64,000 bases of DNA, taken from assembly GCF_000445065.1 (NCBI RefSeq), contig NZ_ATHO01000150.1, positions 1 through 64,000 on the forward strand, written 5' to 3'. Shown piece by piece: positions 13,972 through 18,831 of the stretch; the first letter of the stretch is position 1, and the number at the start of each line of letters is the position of its first letter. The position numbers were made by a program, and so were the translations under genes. This stretch comes from Sphingobium quisquiliarum P25. Its GTDB lineage: Bacteria > Pseudomonadota > Alphaproteobacteria > Sphingomonadales > Sphingomonadaceae. The notes beneath the pieces are model-generated. The model searched no databases. It was not told the origin of the DNA and saw only the letters and a program-made list of their open reading frames with translations.

Positions 13972-14646
13972 TCCATCCTCCAGCAGGCCCTCGTGCAGCC
14001 GCACGACGCGGTCCATCTTTTCCGCGAGCCGTTCATTATGCGTCGCGACGAGGGCCGCCGAGCCTTCTTCGCGCACGAGGCGGAGGAATTCGGCCAGCAC
14101 GATGTCGGCGGTGCGTTCGTCCAGATTGCCGGTCGGCTCGTCCGCCAGCACCAGTGCGGGGCGGTTGGCGAGCGCGCGGGCGACGGCGACGCGCTGCTGC
14201 TCGCCTCCCGACAACTGACTTGGACGGTGGTCCAGCCGGTGGCCAAGGCCGAGCGAGGTCAGGAGCGATTCCGCGCGCGCCCGCGCTTCATCCATGGTCC
14301 GGTCGCGAATGACCTGCGGCAGGATGACATTTTCGGCCGCGTTGAAGTCGGGCAGCAGGTGATGGAACTGATAGACGAAGCCCAGCGCATCCCGCCGCAA
14401 CCGGGTGCGGCCGTCATTATCCAGCCTGGCCGCTTCCTCTCCATCGATGCGGATCGACCCGTCGAAGCCGCCTTCCAGCAGCCCCACCGCCTGGAGCAAC
14501 GTGGACTTGCCCGACCCGGAAGGGCCGAGCAGCGCAACGATCTCTCCCTGCGCGATGTTAAGATCGATGCCCCGCAGCACGTCGATGGTGACGCCGCCCT
14601 GGGTGAAGCTGCGCCGCAGCCCCGCGACCTTCAAAATGTCATTCAT
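13957..14646 (-). CDS. lolD: Lipoprotein-releasing ABC transporter ATP-binding protein
   Basis: This 229-residue ATPase powers release of lipoproteins from the inner membrane to the periplasmic carrier LolA. It has Walker [10 protein letters not shown], signature [15 protein letters not shown] and Walker [14 protein letters not shown], with LolD-type sequence around the Q-loop ([16 protein letters not shown]). It overlaps the permease gene by 8 bp, so the two are co-translated. MacB/FtsE-like ATPases share these motifs; the permease partner supports Lol. Confidence 0.92.
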
Positions 14647-15889
14647 AGCGCAGCACCTGCACAGGATCGGTATTGGCGGCTTTGAAGGCCGGATAGAGCG
14701 TGGCGAGGAAGCTGAAGATCAGCGCCATCAGGCAGATGATGGCAATCTCCACCGGGTCCGGCTTGGCGGGAAGTTCCGTCAGGAATCGGATCGAGGGGTC
14801 CCAGAGATTCTGGCCGGTCAGGAACTGGATCGCGTTCACCACGCTCTGCCGGAAGAAGAGGAAGGTGAAGCCAAGCACCATGCCCGCCGCCATGCCGAGC
14901 GACCCGATGGTGACGCCCACCGTCATGAAGATCTTGACCAGCCCCGCCCGGCTCGCGCCCATCGTGCGCAAAATGGCTATGTCACGCGTCTTGGCACGGA
15001 CCAGCATGATCAGCGACGACAATATGTTGAACACCGCCACCAGAACGATGATCGAGAGCACCACGAACATCGCGACCCGCTCGACCGCGAGCGCTTCGAA
15101 CAGCGATGCGTTCATCTGCCGCCAGTCGGTGACGACCGCGCGTCCGGCGACCTTGGCGGCCAGCGGCTGGAGGATCGCGCCGACCTTGTCCGCATCGACC
15201 GTCTCCACCTCTATCATCCCCACGACATCGCCGAGCAGCAGCAGCGTCTGCGCGTCCTCCATGGGCATGACGACGAACGCCTTGTCATAGTCATAGACGC
15301 CCACTTCGAAGATCGCCGCGACCTGATAGGCGACCTGGCGCGGCACCGTACCGAAGGGGGTGGACCGTCCCGCCGGATTGATGATGGTCAGGCTGTCGCC
15401 GAGCTGGACACCCAGATTTTCGGCGAGGCGCGATCCGATGGCCACCTTCCCGCCATTGGGCGTCAGGTCATCGAGGCTGCCGGCCAGCACCTTGCCCTTG
15501 AGCGTCGCATTGCTGCGGATGTCCCTTACGGTCATGCCGCGCACCAGCACCGCTTCGACCCGGCCCTGGAAGCTGCCCAGCAGCGGCTGTTCGATCAGCG
15601 GCGTCGCGCTGGTGACGCCGGGCGTCGCCTGCGCTTCCTTCAGCACGGCCCGCCAGTCGGGCAGGCGGCCGCCATAGCCCTGGACCACGGCATGGCCGTT
15701 CAAGCCGACGATCTTGTCGAACAGTTCGGCGCGAAAGCCGTTCATGACGCTCATCACGATGATGAGCGCGGCGACGCCAAGCATCACGGCGGCCAGGCTG
15801 ATCCCAGCGACAAGGAAGATGAAGCCTTCGCCTTTGCCGGGCAGCAGATAGCGCTTGGCGATCATGCGTTCATAGCGAGATAATATCAT
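14639..15889 (-). CDS. lolE: Lipoprotein-releasing system permease, LolC/LolE family
   Basis: This 416-residue permease has a membrane helix near the N-terminus ([20 protein letters not shown]), a large periplasmic MacB-like domain and three C-terminal helices typical of the FtsX fold. The opening [18 protein letters not shown] is characteristic of LolC/E. Alphaproteobacteria commonly carry a single LolC/E-type permease, and only one occurs here, so assigning C versus E by name is arbitrary. It is the first gene of the lolE-lolD unit; its promoter must lie in the gene-free stretch beyond 15889. Confidence 0.9.
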
Positions 15890-16000
15890 GTGGCGCGAAC
15901 GGCCCCTTGAGGAAGGATGTGCCCTGCCCGTCTAGCAGGGTATCGGGTAACGGCAAGCGCCACGGATTGTTGCAAGTCAGCCACAGGGCCGTGAGGAAAA
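15890..16000. other. Leader/promoter region of lolE-lolD with a hairpin
   Basis: The 471 bp from 15890 to 16360 hold no convincing gene. This first part must contain the lolE promoter on the minus strand. A perfect hairpin CCCTGC/GCAGGG (15922-15940, 7-nt loop) lies 33 bp before the lolE start. A minus-strand open frame crossing 15886-16224 has no family features and runs over the hairpin array, so I do not call it. Confidence 0.4.
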
Positions 16001-16205
16001 TGGCTGCGGCCGGAAATAGCCCGTGACAGCGGGCTGCTGGAGCCATAGCAAGTTTGTCGAAGCACAGGTAAAAATGGCCGTGGTTCAGGGATACTGCATC
16101 CCGCTTTGAGCTTAGGGGGCTGAAAAGCGGTTGAGGCAGACCAAGGGGGAGACGAGCAATCGTCCATCAGTGCCCGGATCGTGAAAACACGGTCCGGGCA
16201 CTTTT
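16001..16205 (+). ncRNA. Candidate structured small RNA ending in a strong terminator
   Basis: This orphan region carries consecutive perfect hairpins on the plus strand. They are TGGCT/AGCCA (16001-16045) enclosing AGCCCG/CGGGCT (16018-16035), GGGAT/ATCCC (16088-16102), CCGCTTT/AAAGCGG (16101-16130, sharing bases with the previous one), and GACGA-GCAA-TCGTC (16151-16164) with a GNRA tetraloop. Then comes the terminator stem 16169-16202 followed by Ts. No plus-strand gene ends here to need that terminator. I recognise no Rfam family; RNase P, tmRNA and SRP signatures are absent. The 5' end is uncertain. Confidence 0.4.
16169..16205 (+). terminator. Strong intrinsic terminator without an upstream protein gene
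   Basis: AGTGCCCGGA (16169-16178) pairs perfectly with TCCGGGCACT (16193-16202). An inner CGTG-AAAA-CACG stem-loop sits inside, and a T-run ends at 16205. The polarity is plus strand, because the minus-strand side has no U-run. It insulates the downstream hsp20 promoter and ends the candidate RNA. Confidence 0.8.
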
Positions 16206-16235
16206 GATTCCAGTGGCATTGCATGCGTGCATCAT

Positions 16236-16264
16236 CTTGAATCCCGAAAATCGCTCAACCATAT
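16236..16264 (+). promoter_or_regulatory. RpoH (sigma-32)-type heat-shock promoter of hsp20
   Basis: CTTGAA (16236-16241), a 17-bp spacer and CCATAT (16259-16264) match the alphaproteobacterial RpoH pattern of a CTTG-type -35 and a CCATAT-type -10. Transcription would start near 16271, giving a leader of about 90 nt that contains the thermometer hairpins. Matches to consensus are seen directly; sigma specificity is inferred. Confidence 0.65.
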
Positions 16265-16270
16265 CCGCGT

Positions 16271-16360
16271 GGCACGGCCGCCGCATGGGGCCGGGCATCG
16301 TATCGCCGGATGCCTTTTCGGGTCCGGCATGTTCATTTTGCTCTGTCGGAGATGATGACA
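16271..16360 (+). promoter_or_regulatory. ROSE-like RNA thermometer in the hsp20 5' UTR
   Basis: The leader folds into successive hairpins: CGGCC/GGCCG (16275-16293), GGCATC/GATGCC (16294-16314), and a final short stem CUCU-GUC-GGAG (16341-16351). The last one sequesters the Shine-Dalgarno GGAG ten bases before the ATG. The 5' arm is preceded by UUG, giving the UUGCU that characterises ROSE elements opposite the SD. Leader length, position before an IbpA-type hsp20 and the weak SD-masking stem all fit ROSE elements, which melt on heat shock to allow translation. Confidence 0.65.
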
Positions 16361-16825
16361 ATGCGTGGATTTGACCTGACCCCCTATCGCCGCTCGACCG
16401 TTGGTTTCGATCGCCTTTTCGACCTGATCGAAAATAATACGAGGTTGCAGCAGAGCGACAATTACCCCCCGTTCAATATCGAACGCCTGTCCGAGGATCG
16501 CTATCGCGTGACGCTGGCCGTCGCTGGCTTCCGCCCGGATGAGATCGACATCACCGCCCAGCAGAACCTGTTGCAGGTGATCGGCCGCAAGGATGAGTCC
16601 GCATCCAATGACCGCAGCAAGTTCCTGCATGTCGGCATCGCCAACCGCAGTTTCGAACGCCGCTTCGAACTGGCCGACTTCGTGCGGGTGGAAAAGGCCG
16701 ACCTTGCCGATGGGCTGCTGACGATCGAACTGGTCCGCGAAGTCCCCGAAGCGATGAAGCCGAAGAAGATCGCCATCAATGGCGGCCAGATCGTCGACAT
16801 CAGCAAGGATCGCGACGCCGCCTGA
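16361..16825 (+). CDS. Small heat-shock protein, Hsp20/IbpA family
   Basis: This 154-residue ATP-independent chaperone binds unfolding proteins. It starts MRGFDLTPYRRSTVGFDRLF, the IbpA-type N-terminus, followed by an alpha-crystallin domain: YRVTLAVAGFRPDEIDI, then FERRFELADFVRVEKADLADGLLTIEL. I choose the ATG at 16361 because GGAG at 16348-16351 is correctly spaced; the in-frame ATGs at 16352 and 16355 overlap or crowd that site. Expression is probably controlled twice, by an RpoH-type promoter and a ROSE-like leader. A terminator follows 30 bp after the stop. Confidence 0.93.
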   Translation: MRGFDLTPYRRSTVGFDRLFDLIENNTRLQQSDNYPPFNIERLSEDRYRVTLAVAGFRPDEIDITAQQNLLQVIGRKDESASNDRSKFLHVGIANRSFERRFELADFVRVEKADLADGLLTIELVREVPEAMKPKKIAINGGQIVDISKDRDAA

Positions 16826-16854
16826 TCAGGCTGGCAAAGGACGGAAATGATGCG

Positions 16855-16883
16855 GGGCGCGGTCGCAAGGCCGCGCCCTTTTT
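16855..16883 (+). terminator. Intrinsic terminator of hsp20
   Basis: GGGCGCGG (16855-16862) pairs with CCGCGCCC (16871-16878) around an 8-nt loop and is followed by TTTTT. It is plus-strand oriented and lies between hsp20 and the convergent kup gene. Confidence 0.85.
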
Positions 16884-16902
16884 GCGCCGGGCAAGCTCAA
16901 GC

Positions 16903-18831
16903 TCAGATTTCGACCTGACTGCCCAGTTCCACCACCCGGTTCGTGGGCAGGCGGAAAAACTCCATCGCGCTTTCCGCGTTGCGGAGCATCCAGGCGAAAA
17001 TCTTCTCCCGCCACAGGGGCATGCCGGGCTTGGCCGATGGCAGCAGCGTCTGGCGGGCGAGGAAGAAGCTGGTGTCCATCATCTTGAACGCCTGGCCGCA
17101 GCCCGAAACGTTTTTGAGCGCGGCGGGCACGTCCGGTTCCTGCATGAAGCCATATTGCAGCACGAGACGGAAGAAGCCGCGCCCCAGATCCTCCAGCTTG
17201 CAGCGGCCGTCATCTTCCACGACCGGAACGTCCCTGATCTTGACCGTCAGCAGGATCACCCGTTCATGCAGCACCTTGTTGTGCTTCAAATTATGCAGCA
17301 GCGCATGGGGGACGCCATCGGGCGTCGATGTCATGAAGACGGCGGTGCCGGGCACCCGCACGGCGCTGTTCGCCGCCGACGCCACGAACACAGGGATCGG
17401 CATGGCCGCCTCGCGCAGCCGGTCCTGAACCAGCCTGCGCCCGCGCGACCATGTGGTCAGCAGCGTGAAGACGACGAAGCCGATCAGCAGCGGGAACCAG
17501 CCGCCATCGGGCACCTTGGTGAAATTGGCCGCCAGATAGGCGCCGTCCACCAGGAAGAAGATCGCCAGCAGCGGCGCGGAATAATACCAGCGCCATTTCC
17601 ACAGCCGGTAGAGCAGCACCGTCAGCAGCAGATTGTCGATGAACATGGCCCCCGTCACCGCGATGCCATAGGCGGCAGTGAGGTTGGACGATGTCTGGAA
17701 CACCAGCACCAGCAGGATGACCATGACCATCAACCCCCAGTTGATCAGGGGGATGTAGATCTGCCCGGCGGTGGACGCGCTGGTATGCGAAATGCGCAGG
17801 CGCGGCATGAAGCCGAGCTGGATCGCCTGCTGGGTCACGGAAAAGGCGCCCGAAATCACCGCCTGGCTGGCAATGATCGCGGCCATCGTCGCCAGGCCGA
17901 CCAGCGGAAGCTGCGCCCATTGCGGGGCGAGGTGGTAGAAGGGACTGTGCAGCGCGGACGCCCCTTCGCGGAACAGCAGCGCGCCCTGCCCCATATAGTT
18001 CATCATGAGGGCAGGCAGCACGAAGCTCAGCCACGAAACGCGTATGGGGCTGCGGCCGAAATGACCCATATCGGCATAGAGCGCCTCCGCCCCCGTCACC
18101 GCCAGCACGACCGCGCCAAGGGCGAGGAAGGCAGGCAACGGGTCCGTGACGAAGAACATGACCGCCCAATAGGGGTTGAAGGCATAGAGGATGCCCGGCG
18201 TCTGCACGATGCTGATCACGCCCAGCGTCGCGATCGTCACGAAATAGATCAGCATGATCGGCCCGAACAGCGACGCCACCCGGTTGGTGCCCAGCCCCTG
18301 TATCCAGAAAAGCCCGACCAGGATCACCACCGCCGCGGGCAGGATCACGGGCTCAAGGCTTGAATTATAGACCGCCAGCCCTTCCACCGCCGACAGCACT
18401 GAAACCGCCGGGGTGATCATCGAATCGCCGTAGAAAAGCGAGGTGGCGAACACGCCCAGCAAGATGATGCCGCGCGACCATCGCTGCGTCTTGGTCTGCC
18501 CGTTGATCAGCGCCAGCAGCGCCAGGCTGCCGCCTTCGCCCTTATTGTCGGCGCGCATGATGATGGTGACATATTTCAACGTCACGACCAGCATCATCGA
18601 CCAGAACATCAGGCTGATCACGCCCAATATATGATCGGGGTCGAGCGCCAGATGATGATGCCCGGCAAAGGTTTCGCGGAAGGCGTAGAGCGGGCTGGTG
18701 CCGATATCGCCGAAGACGATGCCGATCGCGCCCACCACCAGCTTCAGCGTGGCCTTCTGCCCCGCATGCCCATGTTCCTGCTCTTGACCGTCCGCAGGGT
18801 GCGATTCCATGCTTACTGTCGCGTCAGCCAT
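16903..18831 (-). CDS. kup: Low-affinity potassium uptake protein, Kup family
   Basis: This integral membrane K+/H+ symporter has about 12 hydrophobic helices followed by a cytoplasmic C-terminal domain. The family hallmark [19 protein letters not shown] lies near residues 35-55, and [19 protein letters not shown] and [13 protein letters not shown] follow. The ATG at 18831 (MADATVSM) gives 642 residues; a GTG three codons upstream is possible and no Shine-Dalgarno sequence decides. The gene stands alone, convergent with hsp20. Kup proteins provide constitutive potassium import, especially at low pH. Confidence 0.94.

Follow-up and report, generated by a model that had tools for sequence, protein, structure and literature searches.

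A predicted small RNA gene between lolC/E and hsp20 in Sphingobium quisquiliarum P25, representing a putative undescribed RNA family of the Sphingomonadaceae

The 64,000-nucleotide stretch of Sphingobium quisquiliarum P25 DNA analyzed here (the window) almost certainly contains an independent, conserved small RNA of about 147 nt, located at 16059..16205 on the plus strand. Judged from sequence comparison, this is the window's copy of an undescribed RNA family of the Sphingomonadaceae, and it is apparently non-coding. It was delimited by a conserved block, a covariance model, compensatory base changes and a terminator, and both ends were estimated to within a few nucleotides. The RNA would be transcribed from about position 16058 and released as a non-coding molecule of this length. 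A first-pass annotation of the region had proposed the layout of an independent small RNA, and this appears to be borne out by a conserved promoter, the terminator, compensatory changes, a mostly single-copy occurrence and synteny across much of the family. The chances are about even that the complete proposal holds, that is, a stand-alone small-RNA gene of an undescribed Sphingomonadaceae family whose product works in trans through G-rich segments.

First, the 5' boundary was examined in an alignment of relatives. Two regimes were seen: sequence and structure were kept from about 16059 onward, and upstream of this point only short blocks were kept, namely RTGACA and TAGC, separated by a non-conserved spacer of 17 nt (18 nt in a few loci), together with TGTTGC-N8-CACAG and AAAAT still farther upstream. 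In the window, the plus strand carries a -35 element, GTGACA (16023..16028), in which the RTGAC-type hexamer is conserved, and a -10 element, TAGCAA (16046..16051), in which the TANN-type tetramer is conserved and the last position is not T. A regular expression for this promoter (RTGAC-type, 17-18 nt, TANN-type) matched 72 of the 79 aligned loci, with a spacer of 17 nt in 63 and 18 nt in 9; among the seven loci that it missed, one is truncated at a contig end. Applied to shuffled upstream DNA, the same rule matched 0.47 of the 79 loci on average and never more than 3. The layout agrees with the sigma-A consensus of Zymomonas mobilis (TTGNNN, 17 bp, TANNNN, no T at -7 and a 6-bp discriminator; PMC7566282). 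The RNA gene is predicted to have its own promoter of the sigma-A type.

The first-pass annotation had let the RNA run from 16001 to 16205 and had described several hairpins in a row. All of these features are present in the sequence, and the 3' end at the terminator stands. However, the first hairpin (16001-16045) was paired in 378 of 798 cells in relatives (47.4%), compared with 46.7% in shuffled columns. This hairpin overlies the promoter and is not conserved, so the 5' boundary lies at about 16058 rather than at 16001, and the RNA itself starts at about 16059. The 16001-16045 hairpin was rejected as part of the RNA, as a chance fold of promoter DNA whose pairing in relatives equals that of shuffled columns.

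Upstream of the promoter, an element with partial dyad symmetry (CTGTKGC..GNCACAG) was found at 15968..16001 on the plus strand (TGTTGC-N8-CACAG-N-AAAAT), and relatives showed the same arrangement, also where the genes neighbouring the RNA differ. Of 396 genomes of the order, 127 contained the exact form TGTTGC-N8-CACA-N9..13-AAAAT, two of these having a second site and the others a single one. Inside the family it was found in 121 of 313 genomes; the matches in 6 of 83 genomes outside the family are presumably due to chance. A reversed control of the pattern gave none among the matches listed. Among the 44 genomes for which a covariance-model match and an element site were both listed, the element immediately preceded the RNA and shared its strand in 35, and in nine it lay elsewhere. 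The element also accompanies copies of the RNA that do not adjoin lolC/E, and therefore belongs to the RNA gene and not to lolC/E. The shorter form TGTKGC-N8-CACAG had three sites in the window's genome, a number equal to that of the reversed control, which makes the short half unremarkable by itself. The full-form element is nearly unique per genome.

Next, the genes on both sides were identified. The divergent neighbour is lolC/E on the minus strand (14639..15889; TIGR02212, 400 bits against a cut-off of 362), and the downstream neighbour, outside the RNA unit, is hsp20 on the plus strand (16361..16825; PF00011, 63.9 bits). The first-pass annotation had described about 200 gene-free bases here, and the plus strand between these two genes is without a convincing gene. 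The RNA ends at a terminator hairpin followed by a U tract (P4, 16169..16205, plus strand), whose stem (16169-16202) has 15 pairs, 10 of them G-C. No plus-strand gene precedes this terminator, the upstream gene lolC/E being on the minus strand, which agrees with the earlier description of a strong plus-strand terminator without an upstream gene. As a class, terminator-like sites in 15000-17500 were no commoner than chance (2 found, 2.0 expected). The U tract is short: its longest T run was 3 in 43 of the 79 loci, at most 3 in 45, and 7 in one.

The RNA could also be read as a leader or cis-regulatory element of hsp20, which in the window is encoded on the same strand and follows the terminator at a distance of about 155 bp. 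We consider this reading extremely improbable. A strong terminator separates the RNA from hsp20, and in relatives hsp20 was found within 500 bp downstream in 26 of the 79 loci, and in another 16 the distance was 2.7-3.1 kb (at least 1000 nt of downstream sequence was present in 72 of the 79 stretches). The gene lolC/E was divergent from the RNA in 75 of the 79 aligned loci, at a distance of 130-350 bp in most and of about 1.5-1.8 kb in nine. Moreover, a ROSE-like thermometer belonging to hsp20 itself lies at 16274-16367. The hsp20-leader candidate was rejected on the terminator and the locus context. The RNA is common in relatives without hsp20 close behind it, so the placement "upstream of hsp20" given at first pass is true in the window but incidental, and the RNA is not tied to hsp20.

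The thermometer is a separate element of the same intergenic region. It lies on the plus strand beyond the terminator, in the hsp20 leader, and overlaps the hsp20 start, an overlap by which ROSE elements are recognized and which the small RNA does not have. The scores were 26.8 bits with ROSE (RF00435, gathering 45) and 19.7 bits with ROSE_3 (RF02523, gathering 43). None of 20 loci of relatives reached the gathering threshold for a ROSE thermometer, and the element at 16274-16367 is possibly a diverged sphingomonad form of ROSE below the Rfam threshold.

The structure of the RNA was then examined. The predicted fold of 15991-16210 had a free energy of -97.7 kcal/mol, compared with -72.7 +/- 4.7 kcal/mol for 200 dinucleotide shuffles (z -5.3), and none of the shuffles was as good. 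A first covariance model was built from 27 close sequences, and it matched and aligned 79 loci. On the plus strand, the RNA begins with hairpin P1 (16059..16086; GAAgCACaGGU ... GGCCGUGgUUC), with 96.3% of cells paired in the 79-locus alignment. This is followed by a first G-rich linker, (A/G)GGGA (16087..16091; mean unpaired probability 0.60), and by the sequence-variable hairpin P2 (16094..16139), which has a G-rich loop at 16114-16119 and 82-92% of cells paired per helix. A second G-rich linker, AAGGGGG (16143..16149; mean unpaired probability 0.66), leads to hairpin P3 (16151..16164), which has five pairs with 100% of cells paired and carries the GCAA tetraloop reported at first pass. In P4, 98.9% of cells were paired, and 10 of the 15 pairs showed two-sided changes.

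Conserved pairing in relatives, on which the first-pass annotation had staked its proposal, was found: two-sided changes were seen in 36 of 46 pairs of the 79-locus alignment, and 94.8% of cells were paired, compared with 82.2% in shuffled columns. The covariation score was 0.348, against 0.158 +/- 0.004 for shuffled columns and at most 0.061 for slid partners. Because this alignment was fitted to the structure, the count was repeated with 24 sequences aligned by plain MAFFT; two-sided changes were then seen in 19 of 47 pairs (11.4 +/- 1.7 shuffled), and the score was 0.226 (0.146 +/- 0.007 shuffled; slides at most 0.097). The count of further standard pair types in the MAFFT alignment was less decisive, with 8 of 500 shuffles as high. 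In that alignment the two-sided changes fell in P2 and P4, and P1 and P3 varied too little for the test.

The hairpins differed in how far their sequence was free to change. P2 showed two-sided changes at all 16 pairs, and its sequence drifts freely. P3 had at least one two-sided change at each of its five pairs. In P1, CAC/GUG was replaced by CAU/AUG (C-G to U-A at the third pair) in 9 of the 79 loci. In the alignment used for the 16001-16045 hairpin, the proportions of paired cells were 98.7% for P1, 90.8% for P3 and 96.0% for P4, compared with 97.7%, 87.3% and 89.8%, respectively, in shuffled columns; P1 hardly varies in this comparison, so that the measure says little about it. The P3 hairpin had five pairs and a four-base loop in 58 of the 79 sequences, and 36 of these 58 had a GNRA loop, which is thus common but not required.

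We also analyzed the G-rich linkers. GGUUC(A/G)GGG, which contains linker 1, was found in 78 of the 79 loci, and in 28 of the 29 outside the pattern-selected set. AAGGGGG was found before P3 in 73 of the 79 loci (50 of 50 pattern-selected loci and 23 of 29 others), and the six loci without it read GAGGGGG, AAGGGGA or AAAGGGA. The conservation of the linkers is partly selected, since the pattern that supplied 50 of the 79 loci itself contained GGTTCRGGG and AAGGGG. In the predicted ensembles, the G-rich linkers were 60-66% unpaired, compared with 47% for all GGG-runs and 5% for C-runs. The GGG-runs were no more frequent than expected from composition (3.49 against 3.38). A switch hairpin between linker 1 and the 5' strand of P2 was considered and found unsupported: its score averaged 10.4, compared with 9.4 in shuffles, and 0 of 78 sequences beat the shuffles at 0.05.

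Such a conserved block could also arise from a short protein-coding gene, or from a DNA-level element that mimics an RNA. By eye, the sequence ATGGCCGTGGTT... of the window opens an 11-codon frame. However, neither the start codon nor the frame was kept in relatives (also by eye), the changes follow base pairing, and a promoter and a terminator flank the structured part. We regard the coding or DNA-element reading as very improbable.

The identity of the small RNA was investigated with Rfam 15. At gathering threshold, the only matches in the whole window were two tRNAs, and 20 loci of relatives gave tRNA only; the RNA had no family match at threshold, in line with the first-pass statement that no known family was recognized. 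A permissive scan of 15880-16380 found only the ROSE-like thermometer described above and two chance-level matches. Permissive scans of the Zymomonas copy and of one Sphingomonas copy gave sub-threshold matches only; those of the Zymomonas copy lay mostly in the 3' part and included weak matches to SorY, SorX and suhB covering this part.

The Rfam search suggested at first pass was to include 6S RNA, and the length and stand-alone layout of the RNA would fit 6S RNA (RF00013), which is likewise small and independent. A 6S RNA folds into one long rod with a central bubble, whereas the conserved fold here is a row of hairpins. No 6S match was obtained in 15880-16380 up to an E value of 10, and a near-threshold 6S candidate lies elsewhere in the genome. 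That the RNA is a diverged 6S RNA is scarcely credible in view of these differences in sequence and fold, and the identity was rejected on the missing regional match and the candidate elsewhere. That candidate (G000:C5:10153-10309, L039) is the likely 6S RNA of the genome; it scored 44.1 bits, just below the gathering score of 46.4, so that annotation at that score would miss it.

In the literature covered, with subscription papers and supplements outside the scope, we recognized no description of this RNA, and the verified small RNAs noticed for the Sphingomonadaceae, within the same scope, were those of Zymomonas only. According to PMC6970203, 15 Zms small RNAs of Z. mobilis were seen by Northern blot, and ZM4 coordinates are printed for ten of the verified ones. 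The family described here occurs in the same species, in ATCC 10988, whereas the Zms coordinates refer to strain ZM4. The RNA may already have been detected in Z. mobilis without the family being recognized.

The distribution of the RNA was determined by several searches. Of 94 genomes of the genus, 89 (the window's own included) had a DNA match to 15985-16210 at E<=0.01, with one match per genome except in G251 and G285, where the second match was the terminator on the other strand. In two of the five genus genomes without a DNA match, the covariance model found a copy (G076, 1.6e-19; G255, 1.3e-20); the remaining three were not encountered in the covariance-model sample. A DNA search with 471 bases matched 7 of 199 family genomes, which shows that DNA similarity fades quickly outside the genus. 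The locus L007, found by DNA, did not reach 1e-6 when searched with the first model and was left out of the 79-sequence alignment, but its place scored 1.6e-13 with the second model (G197). L005 (90% identity over 31 bases) had no first-model match and was taken as chance.

A pattern search gave at least 120 stretches; among the 80 listed, most came from Sphingomonas and Sphingobium, and nine were plainly unrelated. The first model was run on 66 of the 80 listed loci and matched 57 at E<=0.01, and the nine unrelated loci (L066, L077, L084, L092, L107, L111 and L119-L121) gave no match. With a second covariance model, matches at E<=0.01 were obtained in 229 of the 396 genomes from the order, Zymomonas mobilis included. 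At E<=1e-6, 125 of 396 genomes were matched among the matches listed, all of them in the window's family. A class-wide search with the model matched 20 of 289 genomes at E<=0.01, 16 of which were outside the family, with a best value of 2.4e-6. Members outside the family were rejected, the best of these matches falling in unrelated sequence. In view of this background, E<=1e-6 was taken as safe, and weaker matches were taken as real only beside lolC/E or the upstream element. One example of a weak match is that in G041 (0.003), which was not on the contig holding the element of that genome. Twenty mostly weak family matches were fetched for context: 13 of the 20 loci had lolC/E in the stretch, and 18 had the upstream element according to a looser expression.

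The family was also found in Zymomonas mobilis ATCC 10988 (G024), whose copy shares the promoter layout and the 3' domain. This genome was identified by its contig C1, which matched plasmid NC_017180 with 100% identity over 6000 bases; for a second Zymomonas genome (G109), all 16 plasmid matches of one contig were Zymomonas. The copy in ATCC 10988 lies between proS and pyrG, both identified by eye. The Zymomonas copies, detected with the second model, carry AAGGGGG before P3. The exact upstream element pattern had no site in either Zymomonas genome; both copies have TGTTGC-N8-CACA upstream, and ATGACA with TA 17 nt further on.

In the seven fetched loci without lolC/E (L215, L216, L217, L219, L221, L222 and L224), a second and mostly longer version of the RNA occupies another genomic position. 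These keep the upstream element, similar G-rich motifs, UCGUCACG and an (A/G)CGCCCGG terminator, and most carry GGUUCAGGG, GAGGGAU and GGGGG. They apparently lie between hisI (divergent) and comF, with a MerR-like frame in L215; the frames were named by eye. The lolC/E region of these genomes had no convincing copy of the RNA, the best match with filters off scoring 18.7 bits (E 0.0014).

As to function, we tentatively propose that the RNA acts in trans, an explanation to which we give somewhat less than an even chance. The G-rich segments RGGGA and AAGGGGG would be offered to C-rich or CU-rich RNA partners, and P1, P2 and P3 would hold these segments open. The complements of the G-rich segments were not enriched near 308 and 327 crude gene starts (400 kb each) in two relatives. 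A UCGUCAC target signal in a relative of the Sphingomonas group (z 7.5) was rejected, as it came largely from an intergenic repeat ending in GTGACGA. This repeat, GTGGACCCCGG..TCCGGGGTGACGA, was observed in several copies just before genes in the relative G413 (L258-L277), where it mimicked a target signal.

The main rival to RNA pairing is protein titration, in which the G-rich segments would be a protein site and the RNA would titrate the protein in the manner of CsrB and CsrA; we hold this to be possible, though doubtful. Two, sometimes three, similar G-rich segments stay while the sequence of P2 drifts, and the missing enrichment of complementary sites near gene starts also favours titration. 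The RNA resembles CsrB/RsmZ-type RNAs in being stand-alone and terminator-ended and in having repeated G-rich segments between hairpins. It differs from them in that there are only two or three segments, the GGA core is not present in all clades, and no CsrA was found. CsrA sites have an ANGGA core, but the segments in Sphingomonas are mostly CGGGGA and AAGGGGGCU, in which this core is not kept. The window's genome had no match to CsrA (PF02599, 0 of 1; the model finds 3 of 14 control genomes). A CsrA sponge was rejected on this ground, and no other candidate protein is known.

A Shine-Dalgarno-like role was also weighed, in which AAGGGGG would pair with the 3' end of 16S rRNA and the RNA would bind the ribosome and modulate translation. 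The 16S rRNA tail reads CCUCCUU, to which AAGGGGG is complementary with one G-U pair (by eye); the segment is predicted to be 66% unpaired, and no conserved start codon follows it (by eye). However, linker 1 (RGGGA) fits less well and AAGGGGG is absent in 6 of the 79 loci, and we consider ribosome binding improbable.

With regard to the RNA-pairing proposal, the RNA was compared with Hfq-dependent RNAs of the SorY and suhB/MmgR types. It is likewise an intergenic single gene with its own predicted promoter and an intrinsic terminator, and Hfq is encoded in the genome. It differs in its G-rich exposed segments, its short U tract and the lack of a family match at threshold. Hfq-dependent small RNAs of alphaproteobacteria expose CU-rich segments, and typical Hfq-dependent RNAs have longer U tracts than this RNA, which lacks the long 3' U tract by which they are recognized.

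Sphingomonads degrade pollutants and live on plants, and their small RNAs seem little described. Almost every close relative carries the RNA, as do many family members that are less closely related. Its retention across much of the Sphingomonadaceae together with its promoter and element makes a broadly important regulatory role likely. With the covariance model, the RNA can be annotated in family genomes, and laboratory strains allow it to be tested at once. On a more speculative and rather unlikely view, it would be a core regulatory RNA of the whole family, ancient, mostly single-copy, served by a dedicated near-unique element and able to survive relocation (lolC/E versus, apparently, hisI-comF), and it would exemplify a new principle in which bacteria without CsrA use G-rich segments to engage either an RNA-binding protein or the translation machinery.

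Hfq was recognized from two matches to PF17209, which scored 108.4 and 91 bits and were each reported within an open frame of 165 aa. The two matches are adjacent, at G000:C9:85726-86151 (L294, L295), and therefore probably represent one double-domain Hfq protein.
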